64,000 nucleotides of DNA from Elephas maximus indicus (taxonomy: Eukaryota; Chordata; Mammalia; Proboscidea; Elephantidae), in NCBI RefSeq assembly GCF_024166365.1, contig NC_064825.1:104980480-105044479 (forward strand), given 5' to 3'. A program made the position numbers and the translations under genes. Position 1 is the first letter of the stretch. Every line of letters begins with the position of its first letter. The notes under the pieces are model-generated. The model worked only from the letters and a program-made list of their open reading frames with translations. It was not told the DNA's origin and did no database searches. Below are positions 878 through 24,190 of this stretch, one piece after another.

Positions 878-1893
878 ATGGGACACAGAAACAATGTAAC
901 AGAATTTGTCCTCCTAGGACTCACTCAGGATCCTGAGGGCCAAAAAGCATTATTTGTCATGTTTTTGCTCATCTACACTGTGACGATGGTGGGAAATGTG
1001 CTCATTGTCATGATCATTATTGTTAGCCCCTCCTTGGACTCCCTCATGTACTTCTTCCTTGCCTGTCCGTCACTAATAAAGAAAAAAAAATTTTTTTTTT
1101 CTTTATGGATGCTGTTTATTCCACTGACATTTCTCCCAAAATGATTGTAGACCTACTCTATGATAAAAAGACTATTTCCTTCCCAGCTTACATGGGCCAG
1201 CTCTTCATGGGACACTTATTTGTTGGTACTGAGGTCTTTCTTCTGGTGGCAATGGCCTATGACAGCTGTGTGGCCATCTGTAAGCCACTGCACTACTTGA
1301 CCATGATGAATCGACAGGTTTGCATTCTGTTGCTGGTGGTGGCCTGGGTTGGAGGATTTTTGCACTCTTTGGTTCAACTTCTCTTTGTGTACAGCCTCCC
1401 ATTCTGTGGCCCCAATGTCATTGATCACTTCAGCTGTGACATGTACCCGTTATTGGAACTTGGTTGCACTGACACCTATTTTATAGGCCTCACTGTTGTT
1501 ACCAATGGTGGAGCCACCTGTATGGTAATTTTTATCCTTCTACTAGTCTCCTATGGGGTCATCCTAAGCTCCCTGAAGACTTACAGTCAGGAAGGGAGGC
1601 GCAAAGCGCTGGTTACCTGCAGCTCCCACATCACAGTGGTTGTCCTCTTTTTTGTCCCCTGTATTTTCTTGTATGTTAGACCTGTTTCCAACTTTCCTGT
1701 TGAGAAATCCATGACTGTGTTGTATACAGTTATCACTCCCATGTTGAATCCTCTGATATACACCTTGAGAAATTCTGAGATGAAAAAGGCTATGGAAAAA
1801 ATCTTAAGTAAAAGGTTAACTACAGGTAGAGTAAAAATGTGTACCCACACTGAAAATATCATTGCTAATTCTAAAGCAAGAAATAGGCAATAA
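878..1893 (+). pseudogene. Olfactory receptor family 4 (OR4A-like) pseudogene
   Basis: Class II odorant receptor, a seven-helix GPCR of olfactory cilia, now broken. The first 66 codons hold the N-terminal glycosylation motif NNVTEF, TM1 and the start of TM2 (YFFLACPSL). A 29-base insertion of A then T residues, compared with the intact paralogue at 33257, then shifts the frame. From 1105 the rest is open to the stop at 1891-1893: TM3, the ECL2 cysteines, KALVTCSSH and the TM7 motif [12 protein letters not shown]. The TM3 motif reads [10 protein letters not shown] instead of [10 protein letters not shown], so the arginine needed for G-protein coupling is lost. The long C-terminal tail ending near NSKARNRQ resembles human OR4A16 as I recall it. 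Subfamily is assigned from memory. Its partner in unit B is open. Confidence 0.88.
1078..1104. repeat. Palindromic A/T insertion inside OR coding sequence
   Basis: AAAG, nine A, ten T and CTTT form a near-perfect inverted repeat just before the codons for MDAVYS. The paralogue at 33257 has only CTC at this point. The net gain is 29 bases and causes the frameshift. Confidence 0.85.
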
Positions 1894-2072
1894 ATGATCA
1901 CAATGAACGATTAAGTCAATTCAATGGATTCTCTACGAATACTTCACTTTATTAATGTAAAGACATCCAAAATACAGAATAAATTACTCTTTGGGGTTAG
2001 AATTAAACTAATAGAGTTATTCTGGAGGCTAGATAAAGGGCATATATATTTTTAATATTATAAATAAAAATA
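1894..2072 (+). other. 3' flank of first OR (unit A)
   Basis: Sequence matching 34181-34425 downstream of the intact OR. It ends at the L1 nest, and bases 2063-2072 (AATAAAAATA) are probably the left target-site copy. Confidence 0.55.
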
Positions 2073-3567
2073 GGAGGCTGAGCCAAGATGGCAGAATAGA
2101 CAGGCACTTCCAGCGAGCCCTTTTTACAACAAAGACCAGAAAAAGAAAGTGAAACAAGTATATTTGTGACAAGCTGGGAGCCCTGAGCTTCAAAGACAAG
2201 CTTAGAAAATGAACTGCCTATTAAACAAGGTCTTCACCTACCCACATCAGGGACCTAAGGACTCGTAGCTCCACTCAGGTCACCCAGCCACCTGTGACAG
2301 GGGTCCAAGGATAACTGGTACTTCCCAGTCCTTACAACCAAAAAACTTTGGGTGCCCACATTCCATCTTCAGAGCCCACCCACTGCACGCTCTAAGGAAC
2401 AGGGATGCACTTTCCTCAGAGGCACTCGTGGGTTGGTTCTCAGCCCTCTACCTTGTTCAGAGTGTGACCCCCTCCTGCAATCAGATTCTGGTACATACAC
2501 TAATCACCCTGCCCCTCTAAGGCTGTAGGACAAAGCCTGTAACACACACTTGATGATCAGCTACCTGGAAACCTGAACTGAATTCATACAGGAAAAGCGA
2601 ATACTTTCCTAGACTGATACACCTCATAACAGCTCTAGCCATCTGGGGACAGGACATCAGAACTCCAAAGGCAAAAATAACCAAGCTAACTCACTCAAGT
2701 AACCCATCTGGGTATATCAAAACAAAACAAGAACCTACGACACAGTAAGCAAGCATAAACTAATACAATAACTTATAGATGGCTCAGAGACAGCAGTCAA
2801 TATCGAGTCACATAAAGAAACAGACCATGATCACCTCAACAAGCTCTCAAAGCAAAGAATCCAGGGATCTTCTAGATGAAATTGTATTCCTGGAATTACC
2901 AGAGACAGAAAACAAAACATTAATATACAGAACCCTTCAAGACATCAGTAAGGAATTGAGGCAATATGCAGAGCAAGCCAAGGAACACACAGATAATGCA
3001 ATTGAAGAAATAAGAGGGATTATTCAGGAACATAATGAAAAATTTAATAAACTGGAAAAACCCATAGACAGACACCAATCAGAAATTCAGAAGATTAACA
3101 ATAAAATTACAGAATTAGACAACTCAACAGAAAGTCAGAGGAGCAGAACTGAGCAAGTAGAAGCCAGGATTTCTGAACTTGAAGATAAATAAATTGGCGT
3201 TAATATATTTGAAGAAAAATTAGATAAAAGAACTAAAAAAATGAAGGAAACTTAAGAATCATGTGGGACTCTATCAAGAGAAATAACCTACAAGTGATTG
3301 GAGTACCAGAACAGGGGAGGCATAACAGAAAATACAGAGGGAATTGTTGAAGATTTGTTGGCCGAAAACCTCCCTTATATCGTGAAAGATGAGACGATAT
3401 TTATCCAAGATGCTCATTGAAGTCCACATAAAGTAGATCTTAAGAGAATGTCACCAAGACATATTATAATCAAACCTGCCAAAACCAAAGATAAAGAGAG
3501 AATTATAAGAGCATCTAGGGATAGACAAAAAGTCACCTTTCAAAGAAGAGCCAATAAGAATAAGCTT
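2073..3567 (+). mobile_element. L1 fragment: 5' UTR and partial ORF1
   Basis: Starts with an L1 head carrying a YY1-like CAAGATGGC motif. The ORF1 start at 2779 reads MAQRQQSISSHIKKQ, matching ORF1 of the complete L1 at 43257. It stays open for 137 codons covering the N-terminal and coiled-coil region, then stops at 3190-3192. Recognisable ORF1 sequence continues out of frame to 3567, where a second L1 head begins. Its 5' UTR lacks about 550 bases that the neighbouring head (3706-4262) still has. Confidence 0.8.
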
Positions 3568-5872
3568 GGAGGCGGTGTCAAGATGGCGGAATAGACAGAT
3601 GCTTCTGTCGAGCTCTCTTTACAACAAAGACCCGAAAAAAACAAGTGAAACAAGTATATTTGTGACAAGCTGGGAGCCCTGAGCATCAAAGGCAAGCTTA
3701 GACAACAAACTCAGGAGCAGGGGAAGAAAGTGACTGTTCAGAAGTGGAGAGGAGTTACCAGACCTGAATCGCGGTGAGCCTTCAGGCACCATTCCCAGAG
3801 CTGCCGTGGCGGTGGAGGCAGGCTGGTCCTAGCATTTGGCCGCAGTTTCCTCAGAGAGAAGCAGCCAGCCACACAGCCCACTCACCTGAGGAGAACGGGG
3901 CTCTCGGCAAAAGCTAAGTATTTGCGTATATTTTGCCTTGCCCCCCCCACCCTCAAGCCGGCTTCAGCGGCTGTATCCCTAGGCCTGAGATAGACCCTGG
4001 TGAGCACCTAGAGCCATCTTCCTGGCCTTGGGGAAGGAAAAAAATTGCAATGGGGGGAAGATAATTTGCTAGCTCTGTTAACCAGGGGAGCTCAGGACAG
4101 AAGTGGCTCCTGTCCAGGCATAAACCGTCCTTGAACCTTGAGCACCTTTCCCTCCTGCATGGACCTGTGTGGGCCTACTTTGGGAGAATAGGCCCTTGTT
4201 GGTAAACTTCAACTATTTTCGGTGTGCTGTGAAGAGGTGGGTGTTTGATGTTTGTCATTGCTTTGCCTATTAAACAAGGTCCTTACCTACCCACATCAGG
4301 GACCTAAGGACTGGTAGCTCCACTCAAGTCACCTAGCCACCCGTGACAGGGGTCCAAAGATAACTGGTACCTCCCAGTCCTTACAACCAAAAACTTTGGG
4401 TGCCCATTCCCCCTCTGCAGAACCCACCCAGCAGCACGCTCTAGGGAACAGAGACGTGTTCCCCTAGAGACACTTGAGGGTCGGTTCTCAGCCCCCTGCT
4501 TTGTTCAAAGCATGACCCCCTGCTGCAGTCAGATACCGGTATGTACGCATATTACCCCTGCCCGTCTAAGACTGTAGGACAGAGTCTGTACCACACACTT
4601 GATGATCAGCTACCTGGAAACTTGAGCTGAATTCATACAAGAAAACTGAATGGACTCCTAGACTGACATACCTCGTAACAGATCTAGCCAGCTGGGAACA
4701 GGACACCAGAGCTCCAAAGGTGAAAATAATCAAGCTAGCTCACCTAAACAACCCATAGGGGCATACCAAAACAAAACAAAGCAAGCAGCTATGACACAGT
4801 CAGCAAGCACAAACTAACACAATAACTTATAGATGGCTTGGAGACAACAGTCAATATCAAGTCACATAAAGAAACAGACCATGATCACCTCCACAGGCTC
4901 TCAAAACAAAGAATCCAGGGATCTTCTAGATCAAAGTGCATTCCTGGAATTACCAGATGCAGAATACAAAAGTTTAATATACAGAACCCTTCAAGACATC
5001 AGGAAGGAAATGAGGCAACATGCAGAACAAGTCAAGGAACACACAGGTAAAGCAAGTGAAGAAGTTAGAAAGATTATTCAGGAACATAATGAAAAGTATA
5101 ATAAGCTGGAAAAATCCATAGACAAACAGCAATCAGAAATTCAGAAGATTAACAATAAAATTACGGAATTAGACAACTCAATAGAAAATCAGAGGAGCAG
5201 AATTGAGCAAGTAGAACCTAGAATTTCTGAACTTGAAGATAAATCACTTGGCACTGATATATTTAAGGAAAAATCAAATAAAAGAACTTAAAAAAAATGA
5301 AGAAACCTCAAGAATCATGTGGGACTCTATCAAGAGAAATAACCTACTAGTGATTGAAGTACCAGAGCAGGGAGGGATAACAGAAAATACAGAGAAAATT
5401 GTTGAAGATTTGCTGGCAGAAAACTTCCCTAATATTGTGAAAGACGAGAAGATATCTATCCAAGATGCTTATCGAACTCCACATAAAGTCACCAAGACGT
5501 ATTATAATCAAACTTGCCAAAACCAAAGATAAAGAGAGAATTATAACTCAGAAAAACCCAGTGCCGTCGAGTCGATTCTGACTCACAGAGACCCTATAGG
5601 ACAGAGTAGAACTGCTCCATAGAGTTTCCAAGGAGTGCCTGGTGGATTCGAACTGCTGACCCTCTGGTTAGCGACCGTAGCACTTAACCACTACGCCACC
5701 AGGGTTTCCAATTATAAGAGCAGTGAGGGATAAACAAAAAGTCACTTACAAAGGAGAGCCAATAAGAATAAGCTTGGATTACTTGGCAGAAACTGACAAA
5801 AGAAAAACAGGAGAGGAAGCAAATAACCTGAAAAAGAAATGAGGTGGGCAATATTACAACAGGCCCAACTGA
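3568..5872 (+). mobile_element. Second L1 fragment: 5' UTR, ORF1 and a scrap of ORF2
   Basis: A new L1 head (GGAGGCGGTGTCAAGATGGCGG) starts directly after the previous piece. Its 5' UTR is about 1.26 kb. ORF1 begins at 4833 (MAWRQQSISSHIKKQ) and is open for 152 codons, after which the frame shifts. An AfroSINE interrupts it at 5547-5709. After the SINE, ORF1 sequence runs to about 5790 and then jumps to ORF2 sequence matching codons near 383-405 of the complete L1 (5795-5872). An internal deletion of over 1 kb is therefore present. Confidence 0.75.
5547..5709 (-). mobile_element. AfroSINE inserted in L1 ORF1
   Basis: Read on the minus strand it starts GGAAACCCTGGTGGCGTAGT, a tRNA-like head with A-box and a TTCGAATCC B-box. 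It ends GACTCGACGGCACTGGGTTT, the tail shared with RTE. Target-site copies AATTATAA lie at 5539-5546 and 5710-5717. Confidence 0.92.
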
Positions 5873-6771
5873 AAGTGTGCGTCAGCATTGTATTCTTTCA
5901 CCATACATATTTAATCTGTATGCTGAGCAGATAACCCGAGAAGCTGGGTTAAATGAAGAACGGGGCATCAGGATTGGAGGAAGACTCATTAACAACCTGT
6001 GTTATGCAGATGGACACAACCTTGCTTGCTGAAAGTGAAGATGATCTGAAACACTTACTAATGAAGATCAAAGAACACAGCCTTCAGTATGGATTACACC
6101 TCAACATAAAGAAAACCAAAATCCTCACAACTGGACCAATGAGCAACATCAGGATGAATGGAGAAAAGATTGAAGTTGTCAATGAATTCATTTTACTTGG
6201 ATCCACAATCAACAGCCATGGAAGCAGCAGTCAAGAAATCAAAAGACGCATTGCATTGGGCAAATCTGCTGCAAATGAACTCTTCAAAGTGTTGAAGAGC
6301 AAAGATGTCACCCTGAAGACTAAGGTGCACCTGACCCAAGCCATAATATTTTCGATCACATCATATGCATGTGAAAGCTGGACGGTGAATAAGTTGACGC
6401 TTTTGAATTGTGGTGTTGGCGAAGAATATTGAATATACCATGGACTGCCAAAAGAGCGAACAAATCTGTCTTAGAAGAAGTGCGGTCAGAATGCTCCTTA
6501 GAGGCAAGGATAGTGAAACTGCGTCTTTCATATTTTGAACACGTTGTCAGGAGGGATCAGTCCCTGGAGAAGGACATCATGCTTGGCAGAGTACAGGGTC
6601 AGCGGAAAAGAGGAAGACTCTCAACAAGGTGTATTGACACAGTGGCTGCAACAATGAGCTCAAGCATAACAACGATTGTAAGGATGGCACAGGACCGGGC
6701 AGTGTTTCATTCTGTTGTGCATAGGGTCGCTATGAGTCAGAACCAACTCGATGGCACCTAACAACAACAAC
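5873..6771 (+). mobile_element. RTE (BovB-like) LINE, 3' half
   Basis: Translation gives the RTE reverse-transcriptase core and C-terminus across three frames: QHCILSPYIFNLYAE, then a YADDTTLLAES-like catalytic box (seen as MQMDTTLLAESEDD in one frame), LNIKKTKILTT, EFILLGSTI and SYACESWTVNK. It ends with GCTATGAGTCAGAACCAACT followed by CCTAACAACAACAACAA, the tail of RTE-class LINEs. It is 5'-truncated and broken in at least two places. The left flank is L1 ORF2 and the right flank is a different part of L1 ORF2, so simple target duplication is not seen. Confidence 0.82.
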
Positions 6772-7245
6772 AAATGCTCATCCAAAGACTTCGCCAAAAG
6801 AGTAAAAAGACTACCTACAAACTGGGAAAATGTTTTTAGCTATGACATTTCTGATGAGTGCTGATCTCTAAAATCTACGTGATACTGCAAAAACTCAACT
6901 GGAAAAAGACAAATAACCCAATTAAAAATGAGCAAAAGATATGAATAGACACTTCTTAAAGAAGACATTCAGGTAGCTAAGAGATATGTGAGGAAATGTT
7001 CACGATCATTAGCCATTAGAGAAATGCAGATCAAAACAACAATGAGATTTCATCTCACTCCAACAAGGCTGGCATTAATCCAAAAACACAAAATAATAAA
7101 AGTTGGGGGGGGGGCTGTGGAGACATTGGAACACTTACACACTGCTGGTGGGAATTTTAAAATGGTATAACCACTTTGGAAATAGATTTGGTGCTTCCTT
7201 AAACAGTCGGAAATAGAACTACCATGAAATTCAGCAATCTAAACT
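6772..7245 (+). mobile_element. L1 ORF2 C-terminal fragment
   Basis: Matches the complete L1 from about 47786 (ATGCTCATC...AAAGACTTC) through [15 protein letters not shown] to the ELPYNPE region near 48240. Coding frames are broken. A related fragment follows at 8543-9000, so this stretch of ORF2 is present twice in the nest. Confidence 0.75.
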
Positions 7246-8410
7246 GAAGGCTGTGGTCTTTGATCTTCATTAGTAAGTGCTTCAAATCCTCTTCACTTTC
7301 AGCAAACAAGGTTGTGTCATCTGCATAACACAGGTTGTTAATGAGTCTTCCTCCAATCCTGAGGCCCGTTCTTCTTCATATAGTCCAGCTTTTCGGATTA
7401 TTTCCTCAGCGTATAGATTGAATAGATATGGTGAAAGAATACAACCCTGATGCACACCTCTCCTGATTCTTAACCAATCAGTATCCCCTTGTTCTGTCCG
7501 AACAACCCCCTCTTGATCTATGTAAAAGTTCCTTATGAGCACAATTAAGTGTTCTAGAATTCCCATTCTTTGCAGCGTTATCCATAGTTTGTTATGATCC
7601 ATACAGTCGAATGCCTTTGCATAGGCAATAAAACACAGGTAAACATCCTTCTGGTATACTCTGCTTTCAGCCTGGATCCTTCTGACATCAGCGGTGATAT
7701 CCCTGGTTCCACCTGCTCTTCTGAAACTGGCCTGAATTTCTGGCAGTTCCCTGTGGATATACTGCTGCCTCAGTTTTTGAATGATCTTCAGCAAAATTTT
7801 ACTTGCATGTGATATTAATGATATTGTTCTATAATTTCCACATTTGATTGGATCAGCTTTCTTGGGAATAGGCATAAATATGTATCTCTCCCAGTCAGTT
7901 GGCCAGGAAGCTGTCTTCCATATTTCTTGGCATAGACGAGTGAGCACCTCCAGTGCTGCATCTGTTTGTTGAACACATCTCAATTGATATTCCATCAATT
8001 CCTGGAGCCTTGCTTTTCGCGAATGCCTTCAGAGCAGCTTAGACTTCTTCCTTCAGTACCATCAGTTCCTGATCATATGCCACCTCTTGAAATGGTTGAA
8101 CATCGACTAAATTCATTTTGGTATAATGACTCTGTATATTGTTTCCATCTTCTTTTGATGCTTCCTGCATCGTTTAATATTTTCCCCCATGGAATCCTTC
8201 ACTATTGCAACTCGAGGCTTGAATTTTTTCTTCAGTTCTTTCAGCTTGAGAAACACCAAGCTTGTTCTTCCCTTTTGGTTTTCTATCTCCAGCTCTTTGC
8301 ACAAGTCATTATAATACTTTACATTGTCTTCTGGAGCCGCCCTTTGAAATCTTCTGTTCAGTTCTTTTACTTCATCATTTCTTCCTTTTGCTTTAGCTGC
8401 TCGACCTTAG
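7246..8410 (-). mobile_element. RTE (BovB-like) LINE, endonuclease-RT linker and RT, inverted
   Basis: On the minus strand an open stretch (7998 to 7282) encodes a reverse-transcriptase region: ASWPTDWERYIFMPIPKKAD, GNYRTISLISHASKILLKII, QASFRRAGGTRD, AYAKAFDCMDH and RRGVHQGCILSPYLFNLYAE, followed by ASGLEEDSLTTCVMQM. The motifs correspond to RT blocks 1 to 4 of RTE elements. It overlaps the RT part of the sense piece at 5873-6771, so the two are separate copies rather than one element with an inversion. Upstream linker sequence extends to 8410. Confidence 0.82.
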
Positions 8411-10330
8411 GAGCCCAAATACAAGGCATAAACAGTATACAAAACATTGTTAAGAATGCAGAGGAAAAGCTAGATAACTGGGAGCTCCTGAAATTCAAAC
8501 ACCTATGCTCATCAAACTCAAGGGCACTGGGTGGTTTTTTTTATGCTCATCCAAAGACTTCACCAAAAGAGCAAAAAGACTACCTACAGACTGGGAAAAA
8601 GTTTTCAGCTATGACATTTCCAATCAGCACCTGATCTCTAAAATCTACATGATTACTGCAAAAACTCAACTACAAAAAGAAAAATAACCCAGTTAAAAAA
8701 TGGGCAAACGATATGAACAGACACTTCACTAAAGAAGACATTCAGGTAGCTAACAGATACATGAGGAAATGCTCATGGTCATTAGCCATTAGAGAAATGC
8801 AAATCAAAACTACAATGATATTTCATCTTACTCCAACATGGCTGGCATTAATCCAAAAAACACAAAATAATAAATGTTGGGGAGGCTGCGGAGAGATTGG
8901 AGCACTTATACACTGCTGGTGGGAATGTGAAATGGTACAACCACTTTAGAAATTGATTTGGCACTTCCTTAAAAAGCTAGAAATAGAACTACCATATGAC
9001 CCAGCAGTCCCACTCCTCGGAATATATTGTAGAGAAATAAGAGCTTTTATACGAACAGATATATGCACACCCATGTTTATTGCAGCACTGTTTACAATAG
9101 CAAAATGTTGGAATCAACCAAGGTGCCCATCAACAGATGAATGGATAAGTAAATTATGGTATATTCACACAATGGAATACTATGCATCGATTAAGAACAG
9201 TGGAATCTGTGAAACATTTCATAACATGGAGGAACCTGGAAGGCATTATGCAGAGTGAAATGAATCAGTTGCAAAAGGACAAATATTGTATAAGACCACT
9301 ATTATCAGAACTTGAGAAATTGTTTAAACCGAGAAGGAAACATTCTTTTGCAGTTACGAGAGGTGGGTAGGAGGGAAGGTGGGAGAGGGGTATTCACTAA
9401 GTAGATAGTAGATAGGAACTACTTTAGGTGACAGGAAAGACAACACACAATACAGGCAAGGTCAGCACAACTGGATTAAACCAAAAGCAAAGAAGTTTCC
9501 TGAATAAACTGAATGCTTTGAAGGCCTGTGTAGCAAGGGCAGGGGTCTGGGGACCATGGTTTCAGGGGACATCTAAGTCAATTGGAGTAATAAAATCTAT
9601 TAAGAAAACATCCTGCTTCCCACTTTGAAGTCTGGTGTTTGGGTCTTAAATGCTAGCAAGTGGCCATCTCAGATGCATCGATGAGTCTCGATCCACCTGG
9701 ATCAAACGAGAATGAAGAACACCAAAGACACAAGGTAATTACGAGCCCAAGAGACAGAAAGGGCCACATGAACCAGAGACTACATCATCCTGAGACCAGA
9801 AGAACTAGATGGTGTCTGGCTATAACAAATGACTGCCCTGACAGGGAATACAACAGAGAACCCCTGAGGGAGCAGGAGAGCAGTGGTATGCAGACCCCAA
9901 ATTCTCATAAAAAATCCAGACTTAATGGTCTGACTGAGACTAGAAGGACCCCGGTGGTCATGGTTCCCAGACCTTCTGTTGGCCCAGGACAGGAACCATT
10001 CTCGAAGCCAACACTTCAGACATGGATTGGACTGGACAATGGGTTGGAGAGGGGTGCTGGTGAGGAATGAGCTTCTTGGATCAGGTGGACACTTGAGACT
10101 ATGTTTGCATCTCCTGCCTGGAGGGGAGATGAGATGGTAAAAAAAAAAATAAGAGGGGGTTAAAAAAAAAAGGTGGCAAAATGGACACAAAAAGAGAGAG
10201 TAGAGGGAGGGAGCGGGCTGTATCGGGGGAGAGTAATTGGGAGTATGTAGCAAGGTGTATATAAGTTTTTGTGTGAGAGTCTGACTTGATTTGTAAAATT
10301 TTGCTTAAAGCACAATAAACATTAGAAAAT
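8411..10330 (+). mobile_element. L1 ORF2 3' end and 3' UTR
   Basis: Starts in ORF2 at a position matching [13 protein letters not shown] of the complete L1 (about 47689). It runs through the cysteine motif region ([18 protein letters not shown] at 8875-8930), passes the point where the young L1 has its early stop (here RCPSTDEWISKLWYIHTMEY), and then the 3' UTR with a purine-rich GGGAGGG stretch near 9365-9392. It ends AATAAACATTAGAAAATAAA. A 29-base SINE stub interrupts it at 8514-8542. Confidence 0.82.
8514..8542 (+). mobile_element. Minimal 5'-truncated AfroSINE stub (29 bp)
   Basis: AACTCAAGGGCACTGGGT plus a T-rich tail equals the last bases of AfroSINE (AACTCGACGGCACTGGGT plus T run). 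It is flanked by exact 9-bp copies ATGCTCATC at 8505-8513 and 8543-8551. The complete L1 at 47785 shows the empty site. This is a bona fide but almost tail-only insertion. Confidence 0.75.
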
Positions 10331-11409
10331 AAATAAATAAAACTAACCTCACATGGTAATTTTGTTTTTCTGAGTACATACCAAAACAGGACTTTCTTTT
10401 AAAAAGAGAAAAAACAAATTACTTTGGAAAATTTTGTATCATTCAAATTAATGAGGAAACAATTTGGCAAATACTTAGAACAAATTTCTGAGGGCAAAAG
10501 TATGATTTTAATATTTTACTGTTCATTATTCTATTAGCACAACAGCTACTTTGACGCTCCAGTATGCATTTTGTGCTTAAGATTACTTCTGCTCCTCTGT
10601 TCAGTGCCTGTGCATTTGCAATTCTGCATATTTTAGTGGGACATGACGTTGTGTTTGGTTTGAGACACCATCAGTGAGCAAGTTTGATAGATGGGATGTG
10701 ATTGATGAAGAAAACTCATGAGTTCTTGATTAGAGGACAGATAGTACTCTTTTACTTTAGATTTGAAAATAATATTAATCAGAGTTATAAACATATTTAC
10801 ATTTTTCCTCATTAGTTATTATGTGCATTTTTTGTGATTCTTAAAAGATTAGATAGAGCTTCTGATTTTATCTCCACGAAATTGAAGATATGGAAAGAAA
10901 TGTGTTATTTTGCATAAACAGCACTTTCCCTAAAAGTTGTATTAAACTTTAAGGCTTTTTTTATGTAGAGACTTAGTAATGATTTGTTTGGTAAAAAGAA
11001 AATTTTGTTTTTTTCAATTTTATGTAAAAAAAGAAAAGTTTTTCTCAGCCTACCGCCCATCCAGGAGCATCCCAAAATCAGAAAGCAGAAAGAATTTTCT
11101 CAGTGTAGTATGGAGCATTATCTATGTTTAACAAGAGTTTACTTTTCCAACTAAAACATAGACTTTAGAACTTTTCTTATTTTTAAATTTTAGTAATTTT
11201 TCACGTATACCCAGCAACATATGCAATTATTTGTAAATCTTGTAGTCTTTTACCTAGATTATCAATATCATTGAAACTACCTGATTCTACTTCTCTGATG
11301 CCATTTTTCCACATCTTCTCAGAATTAATCCTAATCCTAATTTTTTAATCATAGTTAAAAATAATTTAATTATGTCTGTATGTATCCTTAAAGTATATTG
11401 TTTAGATTT
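10331..11409 (+). other. Unit sequence without recognised features
   Basis: Matches 34,430-35,495 in unit B. AT-rich, with no open frame of note and no repeat family I can name. Confidence 0.6.
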
Positions 11410-14400
11410 TCTTATTCCAGTAGTTTCGTTATGGAATATTTGGTGTTGTCTATGTGTAGGATCATATCATTTGCAAATAGAGAGAGTTTTACCAATTCAT
11501 TTTCGATCTGGATGCCATTATTTCTTTTTCTTCTCTTACTGCTCTAGCTAGGACTTCCAGTACAATGTTAAATACGAGTGGTGATAAAAAGCCTCCTTGT
11601 CTTGTTCATGTTCTCAGGGGGAATGCTTTCAGCCTCTCTCCATTGAGAATGATGTTGGCTTTTGGTTTTGTATAGATGCCCTTTATTATGTTGAGGAATT
11701 TCTCTACTATTCCTATTTTATTGAGAGTTTTTTATCAGGAATAAGTGTTGGGCTTTATCAAATGTCAACTGTGTTGTCATGTGGTTTTTTCTTTTGTTCT
11801 ATTTATATGATGGATTACGTTGATTGATTTTCTAATGTTGAACAATCCTTGCATACCTGGTATGAATCTCACTTGGTAGTGGTGTATTACCTTTTTAATG
11901 TGATGCTGAATACTTTTGGCTAGAATTTTGCTGTGCATTTTTGCTTTTGTGTTCATGAGAGATATTGGTCTGTATTTTTATTTTTTAAGTTTGTATGTTT
12001 TCCTGCCTTTAGTATCAGGGTTATACTGGCTTTATAGAATGAATTTGGGAGATTTCCTTCATTTCTATGCTTTGAAATAATTTGAATAGTACTGGTGTGA
12101 GCTCTTCTCTGAATGTTTGGTAGAATTCTCCAGTGAAGCAGTTGAGGCCAGGGTTTTTTTGTTGGGAGTTTTTATTTTTTACCCCCTTCGATCTCTTCTC
12201 TTGTTACACATTTTTCCGATTTTCTATCTCAGTTTTTGTAAGTTTAGGTAGGTAGTGTGCTTCCAGAAATTTGCCCATTTCCTCTAGTTTCTCAAATTTG
12301 CTGGAGTACAATTTTTCATAGTATTCTTTTGTGATCTTTTTTGTTTTAGTTAGGTCTATCGTAATGTCTCTTTTCTCATCTTATTTGTGTCATTTGTTTC
12401 CTCTTCCTCTCCTGTTTTTCTTTTGTCAGCTTGTTCAATGCTTTGCCGAGTTTTTGACCTTTTCAAAGAACGAAGTTTTGGTCTTGTTGATTTTTTTTTC
12501 CTGATATTTCATTTATTTCTGCTGTAATCTTTATTACTTCCTTTTTTCTGTTGCCTCTGGCCTCTTTTGCTGTTCTCTTTCTATTTGTTCAAGTCATAGA
12601 GCTAACATTTTTATTTTTGTGTGTTCTTCTATTTTGATGTGTGCATTTATTGCTATAAATTGACCTCTGAACACTGCCTTTGCTGTGTCTCAAAGGCTTC
12701 GATATGATATGTTTACATTCTCATTTGATTCTAGGAATTTTTTGATTCCCTCTTAGATTTCTTCTATTACCCAGTGGTTTTTAAGGCAGATGTTATTCAA
12801 TCTTCATGTATTTGATTTTTTTTCCCTTGCTCTTTTCTTGCTGATTTCTACTTTTATGGTGTTGTGATTAGAATGTTTTGTATTAGTTTAATGGTTTAGA
12901 TTTTATTGAAGGTTGTTTTGTGCCTAAAATGTGGCCTATTTTGGAGAATGTTTCCTGTGCATTGGAAAAAATGCACACTTTGCTGCTGCTTGGTGGAGTG
13001 TTCTATATATGTCTATGAGGTAAAGTTGGGTGATCATGGCCTTTAGATCTTCTGTATTTTTGCTGTGTTTCTTTCTAGATGTTCTGCCCACTATTGAGTG
13101 ATGTGCTGAAGTCTACTACTATTAGTGTGGAACTGAACATTTCTCTTTTCTGTACTTGTAGAGTTGGTTTTATGTATTTTGGAACCCTGTCATTGAGTGT
13201 ATAGATATTTATTAAAGTTTTGTGTTCTTGGTTGATTGTCATTTTAATCATTATATAATGCCCTCCCTTGTCTTTATGATCAGTTTTGCTGTAAAGTCTA
13301 TTTTATATGAGAGTAATATTGCTACACCTACTCTTTTTTGGTTACTGTTCGCCTGATATATTTTTCTTTTTTTTAATTTTTCGTATGTTTATGACTTTGT
13401 GTCAATGATATGTCTTTTGGAGACAGCATATAGGTGAATTCTTTTTAATCCATTCTGCCACTCTCTGTCTCTTTATGGGTGCATTTAAGCCATTAACATT
13501 CAGTGTGATTTTCGATAGATACCCAACCCCAGTGCTGTTGAGTCGATTCCGACTCGTATCGACAGTATAAGACAGAGTAGAACTGCCCCATAGAGTTTGC
13601 AAGGAGGGCCTGGCAGATTTGAACTGCTGACCTTTTAGTTAGCAGCCATAGCACTTAACCACTATGTCACCAGGGTTTCATAGGTATGAGTTTATTGCCA
13701 TCTTGTTGTGCTTTTCTTTTGTGGTGCTGACATTTTCTTTGTTCCTCTTACTTTCCTGTGCTGAGTTCCTTTTGTTTGTGGATTTTCTTTCATTATCATA
13801 GGTTTTGTTTTAATGAGTCTTTATGTGTTTCTTCTTTTTTTATTGGCATGGTTAGGTTTGTTAACTTTCTTTGTGGTTTCCTTGAAATTTACCCTTAACT
13901 TCCTCAGTGTGAATCAGTCATTTATTACTTGATATTGCCTTGAATCCCTTTCCATCTGAAAGTTCTATGTCTGTCCCATTTATTCTCCATTTTTATTGTT
14001 TTGACATTGTCATCATTTACTAATAGGCATTCCTGTTTTCCTTTCCATGTATTTAGCCTTGTTTTAATATTGAGAGTCCTTTACCTACGTTGGTATCTGG
14101 CTGGTGCTGACCTATGTCCTAGACTCTGGTTGTAGTCTGATGTTGCTGGTTCTCTCACAGATAGTCTCCCTTTAATATTTCTTGTAAGTTCGGTTTGGTT
14201 TTTTTAGAATTCCCTTAATTTCTGTTTATCTGGATATGTACTAACTTTGCAATCACATTGTAGAGTTTGCAGGATATATTCTTAGTTGGCAGTTTTATCA
14301 ATTCAAGGTTTTATATATGTCATCCCCATCACCTTCTTGCCTGAACTGTTTTTGCCAAGTCATCAGAGTTTAATCTTATTTTTCCCATTTGTAAGTGACT

Positions 14401-15965
14401 TTTTGTTTTTCTAGTGCTCCTTTCAGGATTCTTTCTGTCTTTGGTTTTGGCAAGTGTGATTATGATATATTGTGGTTACATGCTTTTGGAGTCCACCTTT
14501 TTGGGGTCCTTTGAGCATATTGGATGGTCAGTTTTTCATCTTTCATGCTATTTTGGAAGTTTTCTGTCAGCAAATCTTCAACAATCTTCTCTGTGTTTTC
14601 TACTTTCTCCCCTGTTCTGAAACTCCAATCACGTGAAAATTTTTGTTCTTGATTGTATCCCTTAAAATTCTTAATTTTTCTTCATTTTCTTCACTATTTT
14701 TTCCTCAAAGTGGTGTCCATATATTTGTCTTCAATGTTGCTGATTCTGTCTTCCATTGTTTCAAATATGCTTCTAAAGCCTTCTGTAGAGTTGTCTATTT
14801 CTGAACTTTTGTTATCTTTCTGATTTCTAGTTGCCTTTTTTTTGCATAGTTTCTAGTTATTTATTGTGATGAGTTGTTCTTGCATTATTTTCCTGAATTC
14901 TTCCATATTTTTGTGTTTGTTTTCCTTGATTTTGGTTGTGTTTTTGTGGGTTTCATCTGTTATTTTTCCATGATTTTATGTATTTCTTACCTTTTTTTTT
15001 TTCCCTGTGTTTTTCTTGATCTCTTTCCTAATGTCTTGGAGAGCTCTAAATATTAGTATTTTGAATCATCAGGTAGTTCCACTGCCTTTTCTTCTAACAG
15101 AAGTTTATCTGATTCTTTATTTTGCTCACTTGCTGGAGCCATCTTGTCCTACTGTCTCTGAGTCATTCAGTTCTTATTTTCTTTATTTATTGATTGCATA
15201 TTTTTTGCTTCATCCTATATTTATCTTTTCTTTTGATGTCAGTGTGGGTAGGCTCTTGCACACCTTGTCTGGTGTGCAGGGCAGCAGCAGTCAGAGTGAG
15301 TCCACTTCTTTCTACACTGATTTGATGAGGTGGGTGAAGGCAGACTGTGTGGGTGCTATTTCTTTCAGATGTTGGTCCAGAGGTATGGGAGCATTCACAG
15401 CTCCTCACCACATGGATGGGGGTGTCAGACGGGGTGTGGTACAAGATTACTTCCCACCTTTCAGCCATTAGTTGAGTAGTGGGAGAGGACATGCAATGCG
15501 AGTCTGGGGTGGAGGTGTGCCTGAGTGTCAAGGATGCTCTAGCCTTGGCTTCTGGGTTGGGGCCCAAGCAAAGGGAGAGAAATGGCATGTGGGGCAGAAG
15601 GGTGAGGTGTGGAAAAGCTTGTATTTCTGGGTAGCAAGTGTTCTATATCCTGTTGTGAGCTCTGTGAAGTTGCTTTCCCATCTTCCCTGTTTTGGGTCAT
15701 TGCTGGCTGTGCTTCAAGATGCCAACAGAGTTCATATTTGTTGACAGGAGACCTCCCTTCATGTCTCTCCTGGCTCTCTGTTTTCTGTCAATATCTTCTT
15801 TCATTCAGTATTTGACGTAGTTCCTTACCTCTTCATTTGATGGAAAAAAGTTCCAGGATTGACGTTTGTATCTGTTTTACTTCGTTTTTTGGGTCTTTGC
15901 TACAGAGAGATAGGATGGTGGTTCTGTCTATAGCATCACGTTGGCTGAATTCACATGATTCATTT
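11410..15965 (-). mobile_element. Older antisense L1 (unit A)
   Basis: Read on the minus strand it goes from 5' UTR (about 15965-15060) through ORF1 remains, the ORF2 start ([20 protein letters not shown] near 13400-13530) and the ORF2 endonuclease and RT regions to about the YADD box near 11440, where it is 3'-truncated. Many stops and shifts are present. An identical arrangement lies at 35500-39850, so it predates the block duplication. An AfroSINE interrupts it at 13521-13679, in unit A only. Confidence 0.82.
13521..13679 (-). mobile_element. AfroSINE in old L1 (unit A only)
   Basis: Full-length head-to-tail match to the other copies. The plus strand reads CCCAGTGCTGTTGAGTCGAT at the left and ACCACTATGTCACCAGGGTT at the right. 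The corresponding place in unit B (near 37,548) reads straight through L1 sequence, so it inserted after the duplication. Flanks ATAGATA and ATAGGTA are the likely target copies. Confidence 0.9.
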
Positions 15966-16270
15966 TGTAATATGGATATCCATTTGTTCAAATACCCATT
16001 GCTTATAAGTGTTTTTCTTCCCTATTGAATTTAATGAAACTTTTTGAATATATATGAGCATATACTGTGGTTCTATTTCTAGACTCTGTGGTCAATTTTG
16101 TTCAACTATTTGTCTAACTGAAGAAGCATAAGAGAGTATTAGTTACATTTGTTTTGTAGTAAATTCTAAAATCATGTAGTGTTATTCTACCACTTTTATT
16201 TTCAAGATTATTTTAGCTGTAGGACCTTTTCATTTTAATATATATTTTAGAATCTCTTTGCTCATTTCTA
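15966..16270 (-). mobile_element. Ancient L1 ORF2 fragment
   Basis: The plus strand has the antisense pattern of a very old L1 ORF2 C-terminal region (TGGATATCCATTTGTTC, then TGGTTCTATTTCTAGACTCT, then TTGTTTTGTAGTAAATTCTA). Shared with unit B at 39,850-40,050. The younger antisense L1 appears to have landed beside or in it. Confidence 0.55.
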
Positions 16271-16800
16271 CTGTTCCTATTAGGCATTGATGTATAACCA
16301 ACTACCCTAAAACTTGGTAGCTTAAAAAACGTATATTATTTTTTGTATCTCACATTTTTAGGGGTTAGAAATTTAGGCAGACCTTGACTGCTCAATTTTG
16401 CTCCATATGGCATGGAGCTAGTTCAGTGTTTGATATTCTGCTAATGGCCTTACTTACAGTGGGACCAAGATGACTTCACTCAGATGAATGGTGCCCTGAC
16501 AGGAATGTCTTGAAGACTGGGCTCTGCTGGATCCCTCTTCTTCTCCATGTAGACCTATGTAGAGAAGATTTCTCCAGCGAGCTTGTTAGACTCCTTAAAT
16601 GGCTACTCATGGCTCTCAGAGGTAGAAGGCAGAAGCTGCCAGGCTAGGTAAGGTCTATCGCCCCAAATGGCTCAACATTCTGTGATAGTCTAGTGATCAA
16701 GCCAGCCACAGACTTGTCCAGATTGATAAGGGTGAAGAAATTGACTCCATATCTTTGGGCAGTGTTAATATAACAAGAAGAAAAGCATAGGATAGAAGAT
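16271..16800. repeat. Ancient interspersed repeat, family not assigned
   Basis: Contains the pattern TAACCAACTACCCTAAAACT...TAGCTTAAAAAA typical of a common old mammalian repeat whose name I cannot fix. The first 270 bases are missing from unit B. Confidence 0.4.
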
Positions 16801-17480
16801 ATTGTGTCCACCTTTAGAAATACAATTTATACTGTATAAATTGTATACAGTATACCTATGATCACAATAACACACATACTCACACAGGCAAGGTACATTC
16901 ATCCTCTTCATCAACATCTTATCCCATCATGGCATCAGCTTGTAGTTCAGGACTTCAATTTCTAAATCCATATCAGGTATGGATGAGGCTCCTTGGGTAC
17001 AGTTCATTTCATACAGCTCCTAAATTATTGTTTCTCTATATTTGAAGCTATATGAACTGCAGTCATTCTCTCTTCCACACACACTATATACAATGGGAGG
17101 GGATGCAAGATAACCAAAATACACACTACTTTTCAAAAGAGTGGAAAGCGAAAGTTATGCAGTGTGTAAAAGTTAGTTTGAAAGTATTTTAATTTTCTCT
17201 TGTTCCAAAAGTATTTTTTAAAGAAATGCTGAGTAGAATTCATTGAATAAAGCTATATATGAATTGGGGGGGGGGGAGGAAGATTTATCTTATTTAAAGT
17301 ATTGATTAATTTAACAGGTATTATGTTATTCTGATTTTTAATTTTGTGTGTGTCTCTTCCAAAAATTGTGTTATTCAAAGGTTTCTTCCACTTCTCAGTT
17401 GGCAAAAATATTAGCATACATTTGTTTATAATATCCTTTTGGAATATATAGAATCTGCAGCGATGGCCCATTTTTCTCTA
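16801..17480 (+). other. Unit sequence with inverted repeat and G run
   Basis: Matches 40,310-41,190 of unit B with indels. Holds a quasi-palindrome at 16821-16855 and an 11-base G run at 17265-17276 (a shorter run near 40,982 in unit B). No gene seen. Confidence 0.55.
16821..16855. repeat. Quasi-palindromic insertion (unit A only)
   Basis: TACAATTTATAC, one T, then GTATAAATTGTA is a perfect 12-bp inverted repeat. It is followed by ATACAGTATA, which pairs with TATACTGTAT. Unit B has TACAATTTATACCGGTTTAC here, so the second arm looks like a templated inverted copy. Confidence 0.7.
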
Positions 17481-18180
17481 CCAAATCTGGCAGTTTGTTT
17501 TTCCTCTTATTTTTTAAATTCCTTTTGCTAGACAGTTATCCATTTCATTAGTCTTGTCAAAATCGGACTCCTAGTTTTATATATTTTCTCTATTTTTTAA
17601 TTAATTTCTATAGAAATGATTTCTCTTTTATATTTACTGTTTCGATTCTACCATATTCTCCAGGTTTATTTTGCTCTTTCTAGCTTCTTGAGACATTTTG
17701 AGGGTATGTTGATGATTTTTTACAAAATCTTGTAACTCTCTTTTTCATCTTTGCTTAAGAATTATGCTGTGTGTAGAAATTAGTTTGAATGTATTTTAAT
17801 TATGAGACATATATCTGTATGATATAAGTCCTCTTAAATGTATTGTAACTTGTTTTGTACTGGAATATTGTCTATTTTGGTAAATGTTCCATGATGACTT
17901 TGTGATAAATAGAATAGTCACACATTTCCTTTCTGTTTTCTATTGCCATACCATTACCTTACTTTTGTCTTTAATGGTTTAATACAAAGCTTTAGATTCA
18001 GATAATCATTACACAGCATTTTATTCTACAAAGTATAACTTGTCATTTTAGAATTATTATAGGAATTTTGGGTTCAGTTTTATAATCAGGTTTAATGTTA
18101 AGAGATAATTGTATACATATTCTTCTTGCAGTATAAGTTGCTGTGAAGTTTTTTTATCATTTCCTTAAAATGAATTCCAA
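17481..18180 (-). mobile_element. Ancient antisense L1 fragment (unit A)
   Basis: Shows the antisense pattern of old L1 ORF2 (CTCCTAGTTTTATATATTTT, ATTAATTTCTATAGAAATGA, GTATTGTAACTTGTTTTGTA). Partner in unit B at about 41,200-41,870, which keeps about 250 bases lost here. Confidence 0.5.
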
Positions 18181-18689
18181 AATGAAATTTATATCTATAA
18201 TTATATTCCAATCTAAAAATATTTATTTCTATAAATTTCTTCACCATGGAATATAGGAAATTGTCAGTTTAATCACACTTTCATGGACGCTGGCTAATAA
18301 AATTGTATGAACTATTTAAAAAATTGGAGCTAGGTGTTTTGACTTGTAAATAGACACACTCATGTGATTTTTTACAATAGGGATTGATTACACAGGGAAG
18401 TTAGATAGTGGGGGAACCATCAATGTATGTAATGAATTTCATTGCTGTAAAGACAAAGCAGCCTGAAGGAGAGCTGGGACATGCCACAGAATCCTTCAGC
18501 ATACATTTTGAAGTGTAATTAAGATAATTTGGGGCCTGCTAGTAACAAAGATCTAAAAGAACTGTGACATTAACAAGGTAGAGTTTTGATTTTTTTGTCT
18601 TAAAAGAAATACAGAGTAGATTGATTGAATTTAGTCCCAAATGCTTATGGACACTAAATTCTTCTACTCAGTAATTATTAACTCTTGAC

Positions 18690-18945
18690 TTCCATGTTAT
18701 TTAATTTTTTTTAATTTCTTTGTTTTGGAGAAAGTATACTGAGCCAAAGATACATCGTTTTAACAGTTTTTACATGTACAATTCAGTGACCCTGTTTACA
18801 TGCTTCAAATTGTGCTACCATTCTTTATAGTTTCCTTTTCCACATTATTCCACCACAATTATCTTAAACTAACTGCCCTCTAAGTTTCCCATCCAATGTT
18901 TTGATTCACCATTTGTAAATCTGATCTAACATAGATGATTCTTTA
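18690..18945. repeat. Old L1 3'-UTR-like repeat
   Basis: Resembles the common pattern GTACAATTCAGTG...TTGTGCTACCA of old L1 3' regions. The same sequence lies at 42,580-42,810. Assignment from memory only. Confidence 0.4.
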
Positions 18946-19130
18946 AAAGAGCACAATGCTCCAAGCAGAGGTAATTTACAGATTAAAATAATCTATTTTT
19001 TGGTTCATAGAAGACCTCAGGTGATATTTTTGGTTTAAGGTTTAAAGTTTAAAGATTATCTCCGGGAAAAAGTTTCTTGTGCTCACACACATAAGTTGAG
19101 TTTTTCTGCATCAACAGTGAACATGCTCAA

Positions 19131-19510
19131 AAGGAAACAAAGAAAAAAAAATCCCTTTTACGGTAGCATCTAAAAGGATAAAATTCTTAGGAATAATTTT
19201 AGCAGGGAAGTGAAAGACTTCTACACAGAAAACTGTAAAATAGTACTAAAAGAAATTAAAGATAACCTAAATAAATGGATTGTGTTTGAATCTACATATT
19301 TCATGCTCATGGATTGGAAAACTCAATATTGTCAAGATGTCAATACTACCTAAAGCAATTAATAAATTTAAGGAAATCCCCCTCAAAATTCCAACAGCCT
19401 TCTCTACAGAAATGGAAAAAAATCAATTCCCAAATGTATATGGAACTGCCAAGGGCTTCAAACAGCCTAAGCAACCTTGAAAAAACAACAGAAGAGGAGG
19501 ACTCTCACCT
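19131..19510 (+). mobile_element. Old L1 ORF2 fragment, sense (unit A)
   Basis: Translates piecewise to the ORF2 stretch equivalent to [20 protein letters not shown] and [19 protein letters not shown] of the complete L1 (here [20 protein letters not shown]). Partner at 49,775-50,155. Broken by several shifts and older than the duplication. Confidence 0.75.
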
Positions 19511-20109
19511 TTCAATCTCTTGATTTCTATTCTTGTGATATGACCAAGGTCACAGGATGACTGTTGGAGCTCTAGACAACTTGTCTGAGATCTAGAGAAA
19601 CATCAAAAGGAACGGTAAAAGGGAGTTTGGGTTCCGGTTGAATCATCTCACTTCCTGCATGTCTTACTTAATGACTTAACTTTTATCTTATAGGCCACCT
19701 TAATTTTCAAAGGATGCTGGGAAATTTAATTTTTTAAAATCTGGGACTATTGCTTTCCCTGGATATATAAGGTCTAACACTAAGGTAAAGGGAGGGGCAG
19801 AAATATAAAGAAGGCTACCAGAACTCTACAATTTCTACAAATTTTCTTTCTTTTTATGCCCATTTCCAAGCAATGGAGTTTCCTCCTCCCACAGGAACAG
19901 AGTTCCTTGAAACTTTGTGTAAAAAGAAACAGTTGGTAATGTTTTCCTCAGAAAGTGCTGTGTGATAAGACTTAGAATTCCTAGGTTTTCAAGGTATTCC
20001 TTTAAATGTTTTATACTTATTTTTTTTTTTTTTATGTTCAATATAGATTTTACCAATTTGCCTGTCTGTGACTCTTTTTGTGACAAACTCAAGACTCTTA
20101 CTGCTAGTG
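19511..20109 (+). other. Unit sequence without recognised features
   Basis: Matches 50,156-50,725 in unit B. No open frame or repeat family recognised. Confidence 0.5.
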
Positions 20110-20535
20110 TGATATATTAGTTTCCTAGGGCTTCCATAACAAAATCCTGCAAAGTAGGTGGCTTTAAACAACAGAAAGTTAGTCTCAGCTCTGGAGGCAG
20201 AGGTTCAGCATCAGGATGTCAACTCTGTTGATTTCTTCTGAGGCTTTGATGGAGATCTGTTCTACTCCTCTCTCCTACCTTCTAGTAGCTCCAAGAATTC
20301 CTGAGTTGCTACAGCAGCATCACATGGCATCCTTCATCTCGCTCTCTTTGTCTCTGTGTGTCTTCTCTTTTATAAGAGCACCAGTGTGACCCACCCTACT
20401 CCAGTAAAATCTCATATTAATCTAATTGATAACATCTTCATAGACCCTATTTACAAACAGTCATATTCACAAGTACAGGGGCTTGGACTTCAACATATGT
20501 TTGTGAGGGACACAACTTAATCCATAAGAGGTGAG
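20110..20535. repeat. Ancient interspersed repeat, family not assigned (unit A)
   Basis: Begins TTAGTTTCCTAGGGCTTCCA and ends GGGACACAACTTAATCCATA, both patterns of a widespread ancient mammalian repeat. I do not name the family. The same copy lies at 50,727-51,140. Confidence 0.6.
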
Positions 20536-23248
20536 AACCCTGCTTTACATGCATTTAAATTAAGCTTTCAATGATTTGTTCTGAAATTAACTTCTTAGTC
20601 CAGTGGGAGTAGTTCAGATGTCATTTGCAAAGGTATAACTTAAAATTACACATTCAACAGGTTTGCCTATTTTGAAGGTCATGATTTAAAAAAGAGAATT
20701 GTTACATATTCAAATTCTTTCCATTCTGGACTCTTCCCTTTGGATGGTTTGACCTCAGGTTGTACTTTCGTGATTTTTCTCCCCTGAGTACCTGGTCCTG
20801 TAAATCCTGTTCTATGTGGGTAATTATTCTTGTAGCATCTCTCGAGATGCAGAACCTACTCTCAAAATTATGATTAAGGTCCCAATGAGTTTAATGATGG
20901 AAGAGTAACCCTTTGAGATGCATCACTGAAATGACTCAGCAATATTTTTTGTATTTCAAATGTAAATAAAAGGTCCAAAGACTCTTATGTCACCACAGAG
21001 AGTGCTTATCTATATGAGTATTTCCATGACTTTGTTCAGGAACTGAGATGTCGGACTCAACGTGTAACAAAATATGAAAATGAAATTATTCTCCATCCTT
21101 CAGGTAAACCAAAGTTTAACTATGGAAGAAATCAGGCCAGTATAACAGATTGAGAATCAAAATGTTGTAAAGGCTATTTCACTTCTAAACCACAAAATGC
21201 AAAATATTTTTCTAAACTATTCGCAGTTCTCTCTCCCACAAAATTTACTTTGTATTTATTTATTTTTAACCCCATACCACTTATTTAACATTTGATTTTT
21301 TTAGGACAAATTAGGCAAGTATTGGGTTTTTCGACTCTCTTTGGTTATAATGAAGATTCAGACTTCTTTTGGTTAGAGGACATTTTTGATATTTGTATTA
21401 GGAGTCCCAGTAATTGAAAAGGTAACAATTTTATGAAAGATTGAGAGGAGACAGACTTCCTGAAGCATGGAAAGTTTGGATAGAGAGGAACATTTCTAGT
21501 CCAGCTGATGGTGCATGTACTGTCTTACTGTCTGTGTCCACAGAGACGGCATCAGTGTATGAGGCTGTTATCCTTTAGGACAAGGGAGAAGGCACCACAA
21601 TCCAGAACTTGGACTGAATGAGTGTTTCATTATGCAGGTAACCCAGGAAGTGTCTTGACACATAAGAGTCTTCACTGAGGTTTATGTCATGCCAGAGTAC
21701 ATTGGTAGTGTGACTTGGAAAGTCATAGTCTTTTAAAAGTTCTCCTGAGTGATTCTGATAATCGGCCGTATTAGAGAACCTTTGTGGTCGATAAAAATAT
21801 GGGGATTGACTTAACTCTGTAATACCCGTTTGGGTATGTTCATACTGTAAAGATCTAGAGTATATTTACGTCCTCTAACATCAATACTCTTAGAAACTAA
21901 TTTCAAGGTAAGTATTTGGGGGTTATTTTAATGGACAGAGATTTGTAAATCTCATAAAAGATCAATGGAAGTTCTCGGTAATCTGTTAATAATTAGAGTA
22001 TGATGTAAATCTGTAAACTTTGAATGAGTGACTTTCAAGGACCTAAGATAATACTTATCCACGCAGGTTATTATTTCAGTTCATAGGAGTGATAAGTTGG
22101 GTAAGAAGAGGACTGAAATTGATCAGTAGACTTAGCAAATAGAAGGTGTTTTTATGAAGAAGAACAGAGAATTGGGTTGCTTGTTTTAAAAAAGACGTGG
22201 AGTAGAAGCCTTAATAATTTAAACAATGAGGATACTATACTGTATAAATATAGTGAAGAAAATTGTTACTGTAGGAAATGGAGGAGACAATTACAGGAGG
22301 AAGAGTGACAAAAAGGATGGGATCTAGTGCACACACAGAGGTTTTAGCAGAAACAGAAAATCCATGTACTGTGAAGAGGTCCAGCAGAATTATTATGTCA
22401 GATAGGGAAGTAAATGTCAACAGAGATTTTAAAAGTAACTAGATATCATTACTAGGACTATTCTAAGAGATAGCAGGGCTGGTTAATATTGATGGTATTT
22501 ATGATATAGCTTTGTGTGAGTGTGTGTGATCTTTTTCTTCTTTTCCTTGGGATCTCTTCTCTCATCTCTTTCACTCCTGCACACACATCACCAGTAAAAA
22601 AGTCAACTGTTTACAACAAAAATTGAATCTTTCCATGTGTTATTCATGCTCATATAATTATTTCTGTTTTATAATGGTATTATACATACTTTTATGCTTA
22701 TTTCTATGTTCCTCAGCAGTACTTTGTCAGTACCAGTTTTTGAAATTGTGAAATATGACCATTGGGGATTTCAGTTATTAGTTAAAAAGATTCTACCTCT
22801 CCTAGAATGTAGAAAATGAGCGCATTTACTAACATGAAATTGAGTATTAAGTAAATCTTCCTTTGTTTTTATATTAAAGCTTTATTCTACTTATATTTTA
22901 TTTTTATAAATAGCATTAACCATATAAAACCCACTATATACAATTTTATTTTCTACCAGATGTGACAAGTTAGTGTGGTAGCCCTATTTATTTTATAATC
23001 TACTCCTTTCCCCTATGTTTCTAATTACGTTTTTGTCTTTCGTTATTTGATAAGATCACTGAGGTTATGGGCCATATTTTAATTAGCCTTGTATTCTTAA
23101 AATATTGTACAGAGCTGAAACATAATAAATCATAATGCCTATTATGAATGAATAAACAGATTTTCTGGGTATTTCATAGAGTCACTAGTCATTATAATTT
23201 TATGTAAATATGTCCTGAACTCTGAAATAAGGACACATAGAAGAACAT
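20536..23248 (+). other. Upstream region of second OR (unit A)
   Basis: Matches 51,141-51,958 and 55,993-57,873 of unit B, which are split there by an L1. The empty target TAGAGGAC lies near 21375. No coding region seen, and the short open frames are uncorroborated. The OR promoter and non-coding exons should lie here or further up. Confidence 0.6.
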
Positions 23249-24190
23249 ATGGAACAAAGGAAAAATGTGACTGAGTTTGTCCTCTTGGGGCTCACTCAGA
23301 GTCTCCAGGGTCAGAAAATATTATTTGTTGTGTTCTTGCTCATCTATATTGTGACAATAGTGGGCCACCTACTTATTGGCATGACTGTAGTGGTCAGCCC
23401 AACTTTGGATACCCCTGTGTACTCCTTTCTTGGGCACTTATCATGAAAAAAAAAAATTTTTTTTTTTTTTTTATGGATGCTGTTTATTCTACTGCAGTTA
23501 CTCCAAACCTGATTATAGACTTACACTATGAGAAGAAAACAATTTTTTTCCAAGCTTGCCTGACCCAGCTTTTTTCAGAACACTTATTTGGTGGTTTTGA
23601 GGTTTTACTTCTGATGGTCATGACCTATGACCGCTATGTGGCTATCTGCAAACCCTTGCATTCTATGACCATCATGAACCAGCGGGTGTGCGTTCTGCTG
23701 CTGCTGGTGACCTGGGTTGGAGGGTTTCTGCATGTTATACTTCATCTTCTCTTTGTTTACCATCTTCCCTTCTGTGGTCCCCATGTCATTGACCACTTTT
23801 GCTGTGACATGTGCCCCTTATTAAAACTTGCCTGCACTGACATCTATGCCATTGGTCTCACTGTGATTGTCAATGATGGGGCAATACGTGTGGTCATTTT
23901 TATGCTGTTACTCATCTCCTATGGAGTCATTCTGCATCCCTGAGGAACCTTAGTCAGGAAGGGAGGCACCAAGCCTTATCTACATGTGGCTCCCACATTA
24001 CCGTGGTGGTCCTCTTCTTTGTCCCTTGTATTTTTCTGTATATGAAACCTCCTTCACCTTAACAATTGAAAAATTCTTGAGTGTGTTTTGCACTGTTTCC
24101 ACCCCTATGTTGAATCCCTTAATCTATACTCTGAGAAATGCAGAGATGAAAAATGCCATGAAAAAGCTTGGGACCAGAAAAAGAAAATGA
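23249..24190 (+). pseudogene. Olfactory receptor family 4 pseudogene (second in unit A)
   Basis: Begins [18 protein letters not shown] with the usual N-glycosylation site, then TM1 and the TM2 region. A 26-base A/T insertion at 23446-23472, relative to the sister copy at 57874, shifts the frame just before [11 protein letters not shown]. The next part is open from 23473 to 23943 and keeps [10 protein letters not shown] intact, the ECL2 cysteines and SYGVIL. A one-base loss near 23935 and another near 24054 break intracellular loop 3 and the TM6-7 junction. The C-terminus recovers [19 protein letters not shown]. At least three frame disruptions make it non-functional. It is closer to family 4 groups A and C than to others, judged from remembered human sequences. 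Confidence 0.87.
23446..23472. repeat. A11-T16 insertion in OR coding sequence
   Basis: Eleven A followed by sixteen T lie between TCATG and ATGGATGCTG. The sister copy reads TCAGTAATGGATGCT. The position is the same codon as the A/T insertion in the OR at 878. Confidence 0.85.

Follow-up and report, generated by a model that had tools for sequence, protein, structure and literature searches.

Probable small hairpin-capable A/T insertions in two olfactory-receptor copies and at a non-coding site of a duplicated elephant region

Copy-specific blocks in two duplicated units

Within the 64,000 nucleotides analysed here (the window) there are three separate blocks in which a run of A is followed by a run of T, each of them specific to one copy of a duplicated region, without target-site duplications and capable of forming a hairpin. 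These blocks are best filed as small independent hairpin-forming A/T insertions, two of them in olfactory-receptor (OR) copies and one in non-coding DNA; the foremost competing reading is an assembly fault. If they are real, they are hairpin-making insertions whose empty counterparts are preserved in the neighbouring duplicate, and one of them is the only frame-breaking change of a receptor.

The window contains two regions that match each other in several blocks, which we call unit A and unit B, with two OR copies apiece. Unit A carries OR1 (878..1893, plus strand), whose frame is broken by its insert, and OR2 (23249..24190, plus strand), a pseudogene in which the insert leads to an immediate stop. 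Their respective partners in unit B are B1 (33257..34180, plus strand), an intact OR of 307 amino acids, and B2 (57874..58791, plus strand), a pseudogene; both are free of the insert, and the empty sites are the codons at 33452-33454 in B1 and 58069-58071 in B2. Identity over aligned sites is 88% for OR1 and B1, 87% for OR2 and B2, and 74% for OR1 and OR2. Three of the four pieces scanned match the Pfam family 7tm_4 (olfactory receptor), namely the intact B1 and the parts of OR1 and OR2 downstream of the insert, and the fourth, the 65 aa of OR1 that precede the insert, has no Pfam match. Neither of 2 pattern-matching stretches from viral contigs and none of 49 from prokaryote genome contigs codes for a relative of B1; mammalian DNA is not expected in either collection.

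The original prediction of an A run followed by a T run in both receptors is borne out, with A9T10 at 1082-1100 in OR1 and A11T16 at 23446-23472 in OR2. Pair alignments with the unit-B copies at 33257 and 57874 return the net gains it gave, 29 nt in OR1 relative to B1 and 26 nt in OR2 relative to B2, and agree with it that these partners lack the insert. In the four-gene alignment the inserts occupy columns 225-253 (OR1) and 228-253 (OR2; all columns are 0-based), so that the same codon is hit in both genes, as had been claimed; it is the codon preceding the ATG of MDAVYS. The runs were further said to lie just before ATGGATGCTGTTTATTC, which is true of OR2, where this sequence starts at 23473 immediately after the insert, and not of OR1, where an extra CTTT intervenes and the start is at 1105. 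The 17-mer downstream of the inserts is conserved sequence of these ORs: an exact copy of it lies at 33455, and a copy with a single mismatch at 58072. By the usual OR topology, the insert site would fall inside TM2, and not at the boundary of TM2 and the first extracellular loop, where it had been placed. Outside the affected codon, the flanks of OR1 and OR2 show no base lost or duplicated relative to their partners. There is no local excess of substitutions around these two inserts (the fraction of background windows with as many mismatches is 0.24-0.76 for flanks of 10-100 nt), and every mismatch within 20 nt of them (4 and 5) is on the left side.

A scan for A-run/T-run blocks returned one array in addition to the two described earlier. 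This third array, S3 (60188..60212), is A13T12, is non-coding, lies outside any OR and is present only in unit B; at its counterpart in unit A (25567..25600, near 25587) the array is absent, with a 22-nt gap in the MAFFT alignment and flanks that align poorly. Substitutions are in excess around S3, where the corresponding fraction is 0.015-0.023 with 10-30 nt of flank, 0.053 with 50 nt and 0.257 with 100 nt, and the poor alignment may be the cause. The block is thus absent from the homologous copy at all three sites. The comparison of copies gives good support to reading the OR1 and OR2 blocks as probable gains and not losses, B1 being intact and B2 insert-free too, and for S3, which has no outgroup, a gain rather than a loss is assumed. 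Because S3 is non-coding and in unit B, the process would require neither receptor codons nor unit A nor an exchange between OR1 and OR2; what S3 suggests is a copying error of a general kind, or a fault of assembly, and not a receptor-specific event. A single old insertion in an ancestral OR, passed on to OR1 and OR2 and lost from the unit-B copies, would agree with the hit at one codon in both genes; it would require two clean losses, as B1 is intact and B2 also lacks the block, and S3 is unrelated to any insertion in an ancestral OR, so that we regard this history as extremely improbable.

Chance, the shared codon and gene conversion

Blocks of this kind are not expected at the dinucleotide composition of the window. 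AnTn arrays with n of at least 9 occur 3 times in the window and not once in 300 dinucleotide-preserving shuffles, and the reverse order, TnAn with n of at least 9, occurs neither in the window nor in the 300 shuffles. If the A runs (15) and T runs (19) that reach 9 nt were placed at random, 0.004 adjacencies between the two kinds would be expected. The two OR blocks and S3 are also the longest palindromes of the window, with arms of 15 nt where the next has 13 (at most 1 mismatch and a loop of at most 4 nt).

The placement of two of the three inserts on one OR codon is likewise improbable, in keeping with the original statement that a double hit is unlikely by chance. Its probability is about 7 × 10-5 under uniform placement and 0.0011 if insertion is limited to TTTA(A)TG sites, of which the two strands together have 102; this motif was picked post hoc, and the inserts themselves help to create it. 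Similar local sequence of OR1 and OR2 explains the shared codon in part only, because of these two properties of the motif and because it is missing in the unit-B receptors. At the insert site these read CTCATGG and GTAATGG and not TTTATGG, and TTTATGG is therefore not established as the original sequence. The incompletely explained coincidence is the chief reason why the finding stays interesting. We consider it improbable that an active process with a preference for certain sites places self-complementary A-run/T-run blocks, about 25-30 bp long, directly upstream of TTTA(A)TG-like sites in this genome and repeatedly silences ORs at one codon.

The shared codon and the similar lengths of the inserts would also be expected if ectopic conversion or templated repair had moved the insert between OR1 and OR2, with slippage afterwards, and OR1 and OR2 share an identical 20-nt stretch where the insert ends on the right (columns 253-272). 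Gene conversion was among the explanations offered originally, and we examined it in the aligned copies through the sites that divide the four genes two against two (n = 129). At 123 of these OR1 groups with B1 and OR2 with B2, 3 support the remaining grouping, and only 3 pair OR1 with OR2 and B1 with B2. The latter are at columns 185, 385 and 414, none of them adjoining the insert (225-253). Column 220, upstream of the insert, and column 273, downstream of it, both carry the normal grouping, which would confine any converted tract to columns 221-272, about 50 wide. OR1 and OR2 are moreover no more than 74% identical, their inserts are unlike in sequence, and S3 has no OR around it. On these alignments, gene conversion between OR1 and OR2 is not supported, and we would give it a low probability.

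Proposed slippage with fold-back, and the alternatives

We tentatively favour, at close to an even chance, independent insertions of self-complementary A/T sequence through slippage and fold-back, a form of short-range template switching. In the germline, slippage or addition without a template would lengthen a short A/T run; the nascent strand would then fold back or switch strand and copy this run, so that a block of A/T sequence complementary to itself is left. The anatomy of OR1 is what suggests the second step. Its palindrome (1076..1106) reads ATAAAG-A9 / T / T9-CTTTAT, with arms of 15 nt that are 100% complementary around a 1-nt loop, and 6 of the pairs lie past the homopolymers and include mirrored G/C (P of about 0.0005 against random flank pairs from the window). 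Since the arms are mirrored beyond the homopolymers, one arm was probably copied from the other; separate slippage of the A run and of the T run would not yield them. The quasi-palindrome of OR2 (23442..23475), CATG-A11 / T16-ATG, has 15-nt arms with one mismatch and runs of unequal length (A11, T16), and its 0 extra pairs past the homopolymers are within chance, as is the 1 extra pair of S3 (P = 0.36). An arm that is the reverse complement of the other beyond low complexity, as expected of a template switch, is therefore found in OR1 and not in OR2 or S3, where the mechanism is only inferred because they lack this signature. The hairpin-driven process proposed originally is accordingly upheld by the mirrored arms of OR1, finds no such arms at OR2 and S3, and, as far as it was meant to be specific to ORs, is disfavoured by S3. 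The z scores of DNA folding are -4.74 for OR1 (0 of 200 shuffles as good), -3.22 for OR2 (2 of 200) and -1.95 for S3 (7 of 200).

A search for pieces of the inserts within 1.5 kb found none longer than 10 nt for OR1 (where the window reaches only about 1.07 kb upstream) and none longer than 9 nt for OR2, and a 13-nt A run is present within that distance of S3. A switch in one step from a nearby source fails for OR1 and OR2, because no piece that is long enough lies close by.

The consequences differ among the sites. The insert shifts the frame in both receptors, with the first stop at 1142 in OR1, 88 amino acids in, and at 23444 in OR2, straight from the insert. OR2 has two more 1-nt gaps downstream of the insert relative to both unit-B copies, so that of the two other settings one is a pseudogene with further lesions and the other, S3, is non-coding DNA. 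In the part of OR1 that is aligned to B1, we found no frameshift or stop besides the insert, and the insert, as the sole frame-breaking change in that part, may have silenced the gene.

This openness of OR1 is also what would be expected if the blocks were faults of sequencing or assembly, in which A runs were added outwards at abutting contig or read ends, or a low-complexity gap was filled, and the A run and T run were then joined. The same shape appears three times in 64 kb and always as A then T, never T then A, which agrees with such joins. The polarised changes of OR1 (18 synonymous and 27 non-synonymous) also differ little from those of the intact B1 (16 and 21), with 82 of the 108 differences between the two genes polarised. 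One recent Asian elephant reference is described as a build from HiFi reads (PMC13185315, as excerpted), a description that is not linked to this window. Against a fault, the window contains no N, the junctions in the ORs show neither duplicated nor lost flank, and the mirrored G/C arm of OR1 is not expected from a low-quality tail. At the near-invariant DRY motif, which B1 and OR2 retain, OR1 has DSC, and it has also lost the stop codon of B1, its frame continuing to 1893 (region 1800-1893); both features are consistent with a decaying gene. We judge an artefact unlikely, while retaining it as the main competitor of slippage with fold-back. If the block recurs at many sites of this genome, the explanation would be a recurrent type of mutation that has gone unrecognised or else an assembly fault that breaks genes falsely, and receptor counts would be affected either way.

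A bare poly(A) or poly(T) tail inserted by L1-endonuclease priming is a further possibility, and long L1-like frames, judged by a look at their protein products, are present in the window. We take the stretch at 43257-48366 to be a long L1-like copy, on the same protein look, with open frames of 338 aa (43257-44273) and 1209 aa (44737-48366), and because these frames are open the element is perhaps fairly young. A LINE of the RTE type is presumably represented on the minus strand at 7282-7995, where a 237-aa frame resembling a reverse transcriptase stays open, and a repeat near 59663-59812 is one that we take to be AfroSINE-like, which would suggest an afrotherian. The junctions of the three blocks were compared for exact direct repeats, with a tolerance for the junction position of 3 nt on the outer side and 8 nt on the inner side of the insert, and the longest are below 3 nt in OR1, 4 nt in OR2 and 3 nt in S3. 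Insertion of a bare poly(T) is known from human NF1, and the target-site duplication of an L1-endonuclease insertion is typically 7-20 bp (PMC3219598, as excerpted). In the NF1 series such duplications measure 6-17 bp in all but one insertion, and the tails are 60-178 bp long (same excerpt of PMC3219598). With exact junction repeats of at most 4 nt, OR1, OR2 and S3 all lack the target-site duplication of an L1-endonuclease insertion, and we rejected them as candidates for one. Priming at two nicks should, by our reasoning, give T then A, the opposite of the observed order. We hold an origin from such tails to be quite improbable.

Relation to described mutations and other A/T palindromes

The two-step reading with slippage and fold-back has its nearest likeness in the short-range template switches described in great apes under the four-point model, which make close inverted repeats, such as OR1 has, and are enriched at poly(dA:dT) tracts, including the motifs T8 and T10 (PMC7954356, as excerpted). 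A single template-switch event can produce a perfect stem (PMC8794818, as excerpted). The blocks differ from the template-switch mutations covered by the excerpt of PMC7954356 in that OR1 has no outside local source of more than 10 nt, and OR2 and S3 give no sign, above chance, of arms beyond the homopolymers. The NF1 insertions attributed to the L1 endonuclease in the excerpt of PMC3219598 are likewise made only of homopolymer and disrupt a gene; unlike them, the A and T runs here are joined, are short and lack a target-site duplication. Among the matches listed from the open-licence literature, titles and abstract openings contain no report of A-run/T-run insertions in elephant ORs.

Correction of a quasipalindrome to a palindrome, described in bacteria and yeast, likewise ends in a perfect or near-perfect hairpin (PMC7954356, as excerpted); such a correction starts from a quasi-palindrome, and the unit-B partners are without an A/T one where the ORs of unit A have their inserts. 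Other A-to-T palindromes in the window were considered as new insertions and rejected, namely 10993-11012 with 35084-35103, and 32576-32593, since each is matched in the other unit by a sequence that differs in a few bases only. The first two are homologous to each other; the unit-B copy is perfect, with a C mirrored by a G, and in the unit-A copy this position is mismatched and the T run is longer. The pair resembles the outcome of quasi-palindrome correction or of decay.
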